Positions 4,420-6,656 of a stretch of 62,317 nt of DNA are shown piece after piece. Within the stretch, counting starts at the first letter, position 1. Every line of letters begins with the position of its first letter. The stretch is from Rothia santali (lineage in GTDB: Bacteria; Actinomycetota; Actinomycetes; Actinomycetales; Micrococcaceae), in the NCBI RefSeq assembly GCF_024199905.1, contig NZ_JANAFB010000020.1, positions 1-62,317 on the forward strand, written 5' to 3'. The notes under the pieces are model-generated. The model made no database searches. It had not been told where the DNA came from and saw only the letters and a list, made by a program, of their open reading frames with translations. The translations under genes were made by a program, and so were the position numbers.

Positions 4420-4469
4420 TCCCCTCGATTGTCACGTCAAACTGACAAATGACACATCGCGAGTCATCA

Positions 4470-4483
4470 GCGCAACGTTGCGC
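4470..4483. promoter_or_regulatory. LacI-type operator palindrome upstream of the transporter
   Basis: GCGCAACGTTGCGC is a perfect 14-bp palindrome 19 bases upstream of the transporter start. It shares the central AACGTT with the operator at 3113-3124 but has different flanks. It may be a second operator of the adjacent LacI protein. Confidence 0.6.
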
Positions 4484-4502
4484 ATGGACAAAGGACAATG
4501 CC

Positions 4503-5969
4503 GTGGCCACCACGTCAACACCTCGAGAATCGGCAGCCGGGCTGCCGCCGCTCACCCCCGGCAGATACCGCAACCGCCTCGGGCTCATCTCCATCATCGC
4601 CTGCTTCGGCGGGCTGCTCTTCGGATACGACACCGGCGTCATCAACGGCGCCCTGCGCCCCATGACCGCCGAGCTTGGCCTGACCCCCTTCACCGAGGGC
4701 GTCGTCACCAGCTCGCTGGTGTTCGCCGCGGCGATCGGCGCCCTGTGCTGCGGGCGCCTCTCGGACGGCTGGGGCCGCCGCAAGACCATCATCATGCTCG
4801 CCGTGCTGTTCTTCGCCGGCACCCTGTTCGTCGTCTTCACGCCCAACTACGAGGTCCTCGTGGTCGGGCGCGTCCTGCTGGGCCTGGCCGTGGGCGGCGC
4901 CTCGACCGTGGTCCCGGTGTTCCTCTCCGAGCTCGCCCCCTACGAGATCCGCGGGTCCATCGCGGGGCGCAACGAGGTCGCCATCGTCATCGGCCAGCTC
5001 TCGGCCTTCGTGATCAACGCCGTGATCGGCAACGTCTTCAGCGAGTTCACCGGCGTCTGGCGCGTGATGTTCGCGATCTGCGCGATCCCCGCGATCTGCC
5101 TGTTCGTGGGCATGCTGCGGATGCCCGAGTCCCCGCGCTGGCTCGTGGAGAAGGGCCGGCACGAGGAGGCCCTCGCGGTGCTCAAGACCGTCCGCCCGGA
5201 GGACCGTGCCATCGCCGAGCTGGGCGAGGTCGAGCAGGTCGCCGAGGAGGAGCAGACGGAGCGCCAGGTCGGCCTGCGCGCGGTGCTGTCGAACAAGTGG
5301 CTGTTCAGGATCCTGCTGGTCGGCGTCGGCCTGGGCATCGCCCAGCAGCTGACGGGCATCAACTCGATCATGTACTACGGCCAGACGGTGCTGGTGGAGT
5401 CCGGGTTCGACGAGCACGCGGCCCTGATCGCCAACATCGCCCCGGGCATCATCGCCGTCGTCGGTGGGTTCATCGCCCTGACGATGATGGACCGGATCGA
5501 CCGGCGCAAGACCTTCACCATCGGCCTGACGCTGACCACGAGCTGCCACCTGCTCATCGGGCTGGCCTCGATGATGCTGGAGGTCGGCAACCCGGCCCGG
5601 CCCTACGTGATCCTCGCGCTGGTGGTCGCCTTCGTCGGGTCGATGCAGACCTTCCTGAACGTGGCGGTCTGGGTCTACCTCTCCGAGGTGTTCCCGCTGC
5701 ACATGCGCGGGATCGGCACCGGCGTCTCGATCTTCATGCTCTGGGTGACCAACGGGTTCCTCTCGCTGTACTTCCCGTCGCTGGTCGCCGGCGTCGGGAT
5801 CACGGGGACGTTCTTCCTCTTCGCCGGCGTCGGGGTCCTGGCCCTGATCTTCGTGATCACCCAGGTCCCGGAGACCCGCGGGCGGACGCTGGAGGCCCTC
5901 GAGGAGGACGTCAGCACCGGCGCCATCTACGCGGTCAAGGAGCGCCGGAGCCGCCGCGTGACCCACTGA
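4503..5969 (+). CDS. MFS sugar porter
   Basis: A 488-residue, 12-helix major facilitator transporter of the sugar porter family, probably a proton symporter in the cytoplasmic membrane. Signatures seen are FGYDTGVING in helix 1, GRLSDGWGRRK in the 2-3 loop, PESPRWL after helix 6, QQLTGIN in helix 7 and the C-terminal PETRGRTLE. The start is GTG at 4503, seven bases after AAAGGA; the ATG at 4449 in the same frame would add unrelated residues that overlap the operator palindrome. It follows the LacI gene in the same direction and has its own regulatory region, so it probably imports the sugar used by the oxidoreductase/isomerase pair. A strong hairpin at 6008 ends the unit. Confidence 0.92.
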   Translation: MATTSTPRESAAGLPPLTPGRYRNRLGLISIIACFGGLLFGYDTGVINGALRPMTAELGLTPFTEGVVTSSLVFAAAIGALCCGRLSDGWGRRKTIIMLAVLFFAGTLFVVFTPNYEVLVVGRVLLGLAVGGASTVVPVFLSELAPYEIRGSIAGRNEVAIVIGQLSAFVINAVIGNVFSEFTGVWRVMFAICAIPAICLFVGMLRMPESPRWLVEKGRHEEALAVLKTVRPEDRAIAELGEVEQVAEEEQTERQVGLRAVLSNKWLFRILLVGVGLGIAQQLTGINSIMYYGQTVLVESGFDEHAALIANIAPGIIAVVGGFIALTMMDRIDRRKTFTIGLTLTTSCHLLIGLASMMLEVGNPARPYVILALVVAFVGSMQTFLNVAVWVYLSEVFPLHMRGIGTGVSIFMLWVTNGFLSLYFPSLVAGVGITGTFFLFAGVGVLALIFVITQVPETRGRTLEALEEDVSTGAIYAVKERRSRRVTH

Positions 5970-6007
5970 CCCATCGACCCCCCACCGCTGCATCGGCGCA
6001 CGATGAC

Positions 6008-6050
6008 GACGCCGCCCGCCCCGCTCGGACTGAGCAGGGCGGGCGGCGTC
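6008..6050 (+). terminator. Hairpin terminator after the sugar porter
   Basis: GACGCCGCCCGCCC (6008-6021) pairs perfectly with GGGCGGGCGGCGTC (6037-6050), giving a 14-bp stem with a 15-nt loop 38 bases after the transporter stop. There is no T-run, which is common in high-GC actinobacteria. A hairpin with the same stem core recurs at 6306-6348. Confidence 0.7.
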
Positions 6051-6121
6051 GCGCTCGGGCCGACCCCGCGCGCCGCGAACGCACTCCGGGATGACGCCGT
6101 GTGACGGACGTGAGAAGGGGC

Positions 6122-6151
6122 TTGCCAGCGAGAACCTGTTAAGGATAGGCT
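6122..6151 (+). promoter_or_regulatory. Promoter overlapped by an iron box
   Basis: TTGCCA (6122-6127) and TAGGCT (6146-6151) are separated by 18 bases, matching an actinobacterial -35/-10 pair. The -10 hexamer lies inside the DtxR/IdeR-like palindrome, an arrangement typical of iron-repressed promoters. No protein-coding gene follows. Confidence 0.55.
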
Positions 6152-6158
6152 CACCTTA
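6140..6158. promoter_or_regulatory. DtxR/IdeR-type iron box
   Basis: TAAGGATAGGCTCACCTTA matches the 19-bp DtxR/IdeR consensus TTAGGTTAGGCTAACCTAA at 15 of 19 positions, with TAAGG/CCTTA as symmetric ends. It overlaps a promoter -10 element. It lies in the gene-free stretch 5970-6428. Confidence 0.65.
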
Positions 6159-6224
6159 CTGGTTGCTGATAAGTTTCCTGTGTGTGTGATGCTGGGAAGC
6201 CCCCGCCGTGCGGCGGGGGCTTCC
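6158..6224 (+). ncRNA. Candidate iron-regulated small RNA
   Basis: Transcription from the iron-box promoter would begin near 6158 and meet a very stable hairpin at 6195-6224 (GGAAGCCCCCGCC pairing with GGCGGGGGCTTCC). This defines a short RNA of about 65-70 nt with no convincing reading frame or ribosome site. The promoter, operator and hairpin are seen in the sequence; that this is an RNA gene is inferred. It could instead be the leftover leader of a lost iron-regulated gene. Confidence 0.4.
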
Positions 6225-6305
6225 TGCGTCTCCGGCCACTCGAGCGGCACCGCGGCCCCCACCGGCCTCTCGCGCGATACCCCGCACTCACTACACCCAC
6301 CGAAC

Positions 6306-6348
6306 GACGCCGCCCGCCCCGCTCGGTGCGAGCGGGGCGGGCGGCGTC
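6306..6348. terminator. 20-bp perfect hairpin
   Basis: The arms 6306-6325 and 6329-6348 are exact reverse complements with a 3-base spacer (GTG). It lies downstream of the leftward small gene at 6429 and of the rightward RNA candidate, so it can end transcription from both sides. Its outer arm sequence, GACGCCGCCCGCCC, is the same as in the hairpin at 6008. Confidence 0.65.
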
Positions 6349-6423
6349 GGGGTCCGGGGTCCGGGGTCCGGGGTCCGGGGTCCGGGGTCCGGGGTCCGGG
6401 GTCCGGGGTCCGGGGTCCGGGGT
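6349..6423. repeat. GGGGTCC tandem repeat, about 10.7 copies
   Basis: Ten exact copies of the heptamer GGGGTCC (6349-6418) plus a partial GGGGT follow the 20-bp hairpin directly. They end six bases before the stop codon of the small leftward gene. It is noncoding. The copy number is probably unstable. Confidence 0.95.
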
Positions 6424-6428
6424 GGAGG

Positions 6429-6656
6429 CTAGTGCTCGGCCGTCTCCGCGACGGCGTGCCGCGGCTTCTCCTTGGCCAGCCACACGGTGGAGGCGACCAC
6501 GATCACCACGAAGACGGCGAGGATGCCCATGACCGCGGCCATGTGCGGCGTGCCCGACTGCACGGTGAACCACACCGTCACCACGGTGCCGAGGATCAGA
6601 GTGACCAGGAAGGCCAAGGTGATCTGGTTCCTGGAGCGCTTCGGAAACTGTGCCAA
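6429..6656 (-). CDS. Small two-helix membrane protein
   Basis: A 75-residue protein of unknown function with two predicted membrane helices, about residues 12-33 (ITLAFLVTLILGTVVTVWF) and 38-60 (MAAVMGILAVFVVIVVASTVW), a basic N-terminus (KRSRN) and a short charged tail. The start is TTG at 6656, eight bases after AAGGG; no ATG fits. It stands alone between noncoding repeats and the oxidoreductase gene. I do not recognise the family. Confidence 0.7.
   Translation of the reverse strand: MAQFPKRSRNQITLAFLVTLILGTVVTVWFTVQSGTPHMAAVMGILAVFVVIVVASTVWLAKEKPRHAVAETAEH

Follow-up and report, generated by a model that had tools for sequence, protein, structure and literature searches.

Iron-sparing small RNAs (sRNAs) have been described in several bacterial groups, and PrrF1/PrrF2 of Pseudomonas, IsrR and RyhB are all controlled by Fur. 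IsrR of Staphylococcus, the likewise Fur-controlled FsrA of Bacillus, and RyhB of the enterics are iron-repressed sRNAs that cut the synthesis of iron proteins, and neither a dependence on a chaperone nor the synteny of their genes is common to all such RNAs (PMC9410917). PrrF is Hfq-dependent (PMC9410917) and regulates brnD, which encodes a bacterioferritin-like Dps protein, through the 5′ UTR, with a predicted pairing to katA (PMC13104616). In Mycobacterium tuberculosis, MrsI (ncRv11846) is an sRNA of ~100 nt that carries an IdeR box in its promoter, is expressed on iron starvation, uses a six-nucleotide seed for bfrA and hypF and lies at the blaI-rv1847 locus (PMC8628891); it is predicted to be down-regulated by IdeR, in an organism without Hfq (PMC9410917).

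Here, we describe a locus, E1, in the window (the whole 62,317-nt stretch of Rothia santali DNA that was analysed) and a longer sister RNA, E2, encoded elsewhere in the same genome. Together, they probably constitute a previously undescribed RNA family that would function in the manner of an iron-sparing sRNA, as far as can be judged from sequence. In the reading that we favour and consider fairly probable, E1 is a stand-alone iron-repressed sRNA gene, the short sister of E2, and its seed would block the translation of dps, resulting in iron sparing. The system closest in kind is MrsI, which is actinobacterial and has an IdeR box where E1 has an iron box; it is set apart, by description, by its genus and locus, whereas E1/E2 have their seed in a GU-repeat tail before the terminator and dps as the predicted target. 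The system closest in target is PrrF1/PrrF2, also sibling iron-responsive sRNAs with a Dps-like target, but Gram-negative and compared in sequence via Rfam only. IsrR, FsrA and RyhB are separated from E1/E2 by the absence of Rfam matches for the window and for five E2 loci.

Iron sparing in Corynebacterium is carried out by RipA. This regulator acts on acn, and in C. diphtheriae ferritin is directly induced by DtxR (PMC13001254); like E1/E2, this actinobacterial DtxR network adjusts iron use, but through protein regulators rather than RNA, and the available text of that source on Corynebacterium contains no sRNA or dps term. The oral commensal Rothia mucilaginosa makes enterobactin, and the sRNA terms searched are not present in the available parts of that report (PMC7190385). 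Other candidate Rothia noncoding RNAs, tied to ribosomal-protein and hypothetical genes, are reported in a metatranscriptome study. Among the matches listed in the open-licence PubMed Central literature, there was neither an iron sRNA of the E1/E2 kind in Rothia nor an actinobacterial iron-sparing sRNA besides MrsI. If our reading is true, E1/E2 would offer a second actinobacterial case that is simple to approach by experiment, being linked to iron boxes across the genus and having a defined seed as well as a candidate target that can be named. It would also allow asking how such RNAs act in bacteria that are not known to possess Hfq.

A short noncoding unit with an iron box over its promoter

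An earlier note on this DNA had proposed a candidate iron-regulated sRNA transcribed from a TTGCCA-18-TAGGCT promoter, the -10 of which is covered by a DtxR/IdeR-like palindrome. Both hexamers and the palindrome can be read directly from the sequence in that arrangement (Table 1), and the palindrome, TAAGGATAGGCTCACCTTA, agrees with the consensus TTAGGTTAGGCTAACCTAA at 15 of 19 positions. Compared with the pattern TWAGGNTAGSCTNACCTWA, it has 0 mismatches and is the sole such site in the 3.3-Mb genome (84 contigs); both are forms of the DtxR/IdeR consensus. When up to three mismatches to TWAGGNTAGSCTNACCTWA are allowed, the genome contains 25 matches (13 + 12, a near-palindrome often being counted once per strand), compared to 4 for the reversed control pattern.

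The GC hairpin that had been noted downstream is likewise present and comprises 13 bp (arms 6195-6207 and 6212-6224), with the sequence GGAAGCCCCCGCC(GTGC)GGCGGGGGCTTCC. The 73-nt RNA 6158-6230 folds with -43.3 kcal/mol, at z -6.6 relative to shuffles, and the predicted unit, ending at the hairpin, has 67 nt, within the ~65-70 nt originally estimated. Its end module, UUCCUGUGUGUGUGAUGC followed by the hairpin, recurs in E2. Judged by its sequence, E1 is thus a noncoding unit with promoter-like hexamers and a terminator hairpin, in keeping with an iron-sparing sRNA. A simple sigma-70 scan and a U-tract terminator scan of 5950-6450 returned no calls, and a U-tract is almost absent after the E1 hairpin, whereas several E2 relatives have T-runs there. 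Rfam covariance models gave 0 matches to the window at the gathering score. E1 is flanked by a sugar transporter gene (4449-5969, + strand) and a 75-aa open reading frame (6429-6656, - strand) without a Pfam match. A tandem array of about ten copies of the 7-mer GGGGTCC, at ~6349-6422, separates the end of this open reading frame from a GC hairpin at ~6306-6348.

Table 1. Positions of the E1 features in the window and of E2 in the window's genome
Feature	Position	Strand	Remarks
-35-like hexamer TTGCCA	6122..6127	+	sequence; 18-nt spacer to -10
DtxR/IdeR-type iron box TAAGGATAGGCTCACCTTA	6140..6158	+	sole 0-mismatch genome match
-10-like hexamer TAGGCT inside iron box	6146..6151	+	sequence
E1, predicted sRNA of ~67 nt	6158..6224	+	start inferred from -10
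Seed TTCCTGTGTGTGTGATGC, common to E1 and E2	6175..6192	+	directly 5′ of hairpin
Terminator-like hairpin, 13 bp, loop GTGC 6208-6211	6195..6224	+	sequence, fold
E2 of the window's genome	G000:C33:84564-84728		longer RNA with E1 seed and terminator

Conservation of E1 in Rothia halotolerans

A search with 6100-6245 against 59 genomes (the window's own, G000, and its relatives) revealed one further near-full copy, in Rothia halotolerans JCM 31975 (G019), with 94% identity over 6124-6224; in three other genomes among the 59, the match was restricted to the hairpin part. In the alignment of the two copies, 52 of 52 nt are identical over 6142-6193, the promoter hexamers of R. halotolerans read TTGGCA-18-TAGGCT at the same spacing, and the flanks are without clear similarity. 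The earlier note had proposed to judge its candidate by whether close relatives conserve the palindrome and the hairpin; both are kept in one close relative, at a matching locus and with one base of the iron box changed. Indeed, a 5.9-kb query placed a LacI-type regulator gene (81%) directly upstream of E1 in R. halotolerans and the 75-aa gene region (78%) ~4 kb downstream, which ruled out a non-syntenic locus; the sugar transporter gene is merely absent beside E1 there, and related copies are located on other contigs (84%, 76% and 75%). Since the neighbours change while the box, the RNA body and the hairpin stay, these three behave as a unit. The chance of finding 52 unchanged bases at 81% per base is, by simple arithmetic, ~2 in 100,000.

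Beyond these two genomes, a DNA search of 35 Rothia genomes identified no E1, the remaining matches being short, and the sole match of a 25-mer pattern in 295 family genomes, a sample without R. halotolerans, was the window's own copy. An 18-nt seed pattern with 2 mismatches matched in 5 of the 35 genomes of the genus and a 17-nt seed pattern with 1 mismatch in 9 of 395 genomes of the family; in both cases, the contexts outside the window's genome and R. halotolerans were unrelated. Such seed-pattern searches miss relatives, as the repeat of most E2 copies is shorter by one GT than that of the E1 seed, a difficulty that a covariance model solved (see below). An exact pattern scan of genome contigs matched R. 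halotolerans, where the context was examined, together with one Mucilaginibacter and one Rhizobiaceae contig. Considering that the strict filters of the E2-model search of 395 genomes passed over the E1 copies of both the window's genome and R. halotolerans, other short E1-like copies could have been missed.

E1 was found in just two of the 35 Rothia genomes, and genes have come or gone on either side of it, as might also be expected of an orphan iron-box promoter that has lost its gene and is accompanied by a bystander hairpin. We regard this as very improbable, because 52 nucleotides in a row are unlikely to stay unchanged in a remnant under decay at a background identity of ~80%, nor would such a remnant be likely to have its arrangement of seed and terminator in common with a genus-wide RNA.

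E2, a longer sister RNA across the genus

In the window's genome, an 18-nt match at G000:C33:84671 carries TTCCTGTGTGTGTGATGC directly before a GC hairpin, as in E1, and an iron-box match (2 mismatches) is located ~110 nt upstream. The longer RNA to which this module belongs, E2, is 84% identical in R. halotolerans, where one GT less is found in the repeat, and short DNA matches indicate the seed and hairpin module in G034 and G009 as well. A covariance model trained on an alignment of four copies identified full-length E2 in 31 of the 35 Rothia genomes (E 2.7e-8 or better, search of 395 family genomes), 27 of which were outside the training set. The model did not find E2 in G018 (99% complete) or in the less complete G004, G024 and G016. 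Among the 360 family genomes outside Rothia, it gave three weak partial matches, under strict filters that lose weak matches; G106, G174 and G069 (E 0.015-0.046) were rejected as E2 members, being terminator-like only. Rfam searches of the E2 loci of five genomes returned no match inside E2 at E<=1.

In the 31 copies of E2, the block ATTAGGTTATRTTTTTATTACCRAAT is nearly invariant and is followed by a stem region that varies, by GAAGA-CTTT-TCTTC, by the seed CCTGTGTGTGATGC and by the terminator. The first 26 nt of E2 contain a near-invariant imperfect dyad, ATTAGGTWATRTTTTTATTACCRAAT (GGTWAT-N6-ATTACC), which may be a promoter or operator element or a 5′ RNA hairpin. The seed is nearly invariant, with deviations in G007, G025 and G029. 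The E1 of the window matches the E2 model at positions 107-151 only (24.6 bits), showing that E1 is without the 5′ block of E2, and the signature of the E1/E2 family, UUCCUGUGUG(UG)UGAUGC directly followed by the terminator hairpin, is found at window 6175-6224. A more specific proposal, which we advance tentatively, is that of a two-member iron-box sRNA system of Rothia's own, outside Rfam and with a GU-repeat seed that varies by one GT, in which E1 would be a duplicate of E2 stripped down to box, seed and terminator.

Irrespective of the model alignment, all 33 copies (31 of E2 and 2 of E1) fold a hairpin that starts 0-4 nt downstream of the seed, and 23 different stem octamers occur among these 33 hairpins. 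In the model-fitted alignment, which leans towards structure and includes 4 partial rows, 96.3% of the cells are paired, compared to 75.0% after shuffling. In the same alignment, all 12 pairs of the E2 terminator helix, which corresponds to the E1 hairpin, covary with changes on both sides. T-runs after the hairpin in several E2 copies point to an intrinsic terminator.

No reading frame is conserved between E1 and E2, and the frames spanning the seed vary in length and stop among the copies. A tiny peptide or a transcription attenuator could still be imagined from an 8-codon frame before the terminator (TTG CTG ATA AGT TTC CTG TGT GTG TGA), which neither E1 copy interrupts and whose final FLCV-stop recurs at the end of E2 in the window's genome. 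However, the other E2 copies, being one GT shorter, are shifted in frame, so that the stop is lost or moved, no gene follows closely on the + strand in either the window or R. halotolerans, and the terminator covaries at the RNA level; we find this explanation hardly credible.

At most of the ten E2 loci inspected, a divergent membrane-protein-like gene lies on one side and a convergent CHAD gene on the other. The former has no Pfam match, and behind it follows a gene with a LysR substrate domain (Pfam, one genome). The window's genome and R. halotolerans instead have, by eye, an FAD-oxidoreductase-like gene upstream of E2.

Iron boxes probably mark a siderophore regulon, and iron-box-like sites accompany E2

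We inspected the neighbours of the other iron-box matches in the window's genome, with one protein per locus picked by eye. Ten of the eleven neighbour proteins located were analysed (L021 was omitted); the box loci L019 and L023 lie outside this set, and L026 is about the same place as L025. Seven of these ten proteins are of siderophore type according to Pfam, the set comprising five Peripla_BP_2, one AMP-binding, one isochorismatase, one MFS transporter and one UPF0014 protein, as well as one without a match. These neighbours fit catechol siderophore genes, and it is thus very likely, insofar as protein domains can tell, that genes carrying the motif form the organism's iron regulon.

An iron-box-like site matching at least 12 of the 17 informative positions occurs within 120 nt upstream of E2 in 29 of the 31 genomes; the two remaining genomes score 10 (G032) and 11 (G029). 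Among 640 control stretches taken at these loci, the frequency of such sites is 1.6%, and among sequences resampled with a Markov model it is 10.8%. As the genomes are related, these 31 counts are not independent events. Relative to the invariant block of E2, the best site starts 23 nt upstream in G000, G019 and G003, 105 nt upstream in G008 and 39-77 nt upstream in the other 27.

Sites at 39-77 nt could serve the divergent neighbour gene, and in most of the ten loci they do lie on its side. Together with the near-invariant dyad at the start of E2, this lends some substance to the view that E1 and E2 are not set by iron at all and that the boxes pertain to the genes next to them or to an unrelated repressor that has a comparable operator, AGG-N4-CCT. 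Yet the E1 box is a perfect match that overlaps the -10, and it stays in place while the window's genome and R. halotolerans have different genes next upstream of E1. Similarly, these two have another gene upstream of E2 than the other Rothia inspected, and the box-like sites stay. With the genome's box matches marking siderophore-type genes as well, we deem such an origin of the boxes improbable and retain control by iron as the preferred reading. Since the E1 promoter is covered by the iron box, a DtxR/IdeR-type repressor loaded with Fe2+ should hold E1 off, and E2 may be held off likewise, with less certainty. Iron scarcity would free the promoter, and the 67-nt E1 RNA, ending at the GC hairpin, would be made.

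dps as a candidate target

The proposal of an iron-regulated sRNA is thus supported, and two elements missing from the earlier note can be added, namely the sister RNA E2 and a likely target, dps. In the window's genome, the E1/E2 seed has its complement at the ribosome-binding site of dps, a member of the ferritin family. The leader of this gene reads GCATCACAC-19 nt-CACAGGAAGGAAGATC-ATG and contains the seed complement in two separate halves, of which the second covers the ribosome-binding site. The same arrangement is found in R. halotolerans, with CATACAGG at the second half (G-U pair); the Dps protein of this species matches Pfam Ferritin and is 94% identical to that of the window's genome. 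The dps leader of G008 contains three seed-complementary sites, GCATCACACACAC, GCATCACACAC and CACACAGGAAGG, and split or repeated sites are found in the dps leaders of three GC-rich genomes, so that the sRNA may contact a single mRNA at more than one site. We propose that the single-stranded UUCCUGUGUGUGUGAUGC before the hairpin acts as a seed that would pair with mRNA leaders over the ribosome-binding site. On the dps leader, its foremost partner, pairing would block translation, and iron storage would stop when the cell needs iron.

Pattern searches alone did not single out dps. A search for CACAGGAA before start codons gave 14 matches in each genome, with no excess over the control (15 and 13). 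Of the 14 in the window's genome, two are plausible gene starts by eye, those of dps and an MFS transporter. With up to three mismatches, the seed complement had five 3-mismatch matches in the window's genome and R. halotolerans besides the three seeds of the RNA genes, and its reversed control had 4.

Duplex energies, which take no account of accessibility, place dps first among 645 candidate leaders in the part of the window's genome that was covered, for both E1 (-27.2, against a background of -16.9 +/- 3.1) and E2 (-30.6, against -17.8 +/- 3.6). Every start codon that has a Shine-Dalgarno-like motif counted as a leader, so that a gene can contribute more than one, and the set includes loci chosen for their pattern. 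In R. halotolerans, the sample was one contig of 788 kb with 539 genes from a home-made gene caller, which contains dps and is otherwise unselected for targets; here, dps ranks second for E1 and first for E2, and its combined z of -3.96 is followed by -2.89 for the next leader.

For a longer E1 piece and a longer leader of the dps of the window's genome, the pairing is borderline (p 0.060 with resampled leaders and 0.040 with shuffled RNA), and the corresponding values are 0.020 and 0.000 in R. halotolerans; the 26-nt tail of E1 gave 0.000 and 0.000 with the dps of the window's genome. When the E2 of each genome was paired with its own dps leader, the duplex outscored both kinds of shuffle at the 0.05 level in 8 genomes (G000, G019, G008, G010, G001, G022, G020 and G025) out of 25 and was not significant in the other 17, in a comparison that leaves out G029 (seed GTGAAGC) as well as G003, G006, G013, G023 and G031 (distant or no dps match). 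dps therefore cannot be a target throughout the genus, though the seed is nearly invariant; it is a good candidate, on the basis of complementarity, in part of Rothia.

This very discrepancy, a seed kept in nearly all E2 copies alongside significant dps pairing in a minority of the genomes, would also be expected if E1 and E2 are real iron-responsive sRNAs with another mRNA as the main target, dps being incidental or minor. Other leaders do score well for E1 among the 539 of R. halotolerans, in particular those of catalase (rank 3) and L-serine dehydratase (rank 6), both identified by Pfam. For E2, however, these two drop to ranks 119 and 31, whereas dps is an outlier in this sample and the first of the 645 leaders in the window's genome, and we consider a different main target unlikely, with more in its favour than any other alternative to dps repression weighed here. 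The 20 top-ranking leaders of R. halotolerans include those of dps, catalase, L-serine dehydratase, an endonuclease III-like and a siderophore-interacting-like protein (by eye and Pfam), and 20 random genes include an iron-sulfur LutB-like and a cytochrome-c-biogenesis-like protein; iron proteins, assigned mostly by eye, were not clearly enriched in the former set.

Two further observations concern the surroundings of dps and E2. At locus L127, ~65-110 nt before the dps start codon, there are two overlapping inverted repeats, TCATAATAACGTTGTTATGA and TTATGAATGATTCATAA, which look like an operator of a Fur/PerR-type regulator. Near E2, a gene that appears by eye to encode an alpha/beta-hydrolase-like protein (L061:7058-7941) has the leader GCATCACACCCAGGGAGGCAAGAGT-ATG, which ranks second for E2 among the 645 candidate leaders of the window's genome.
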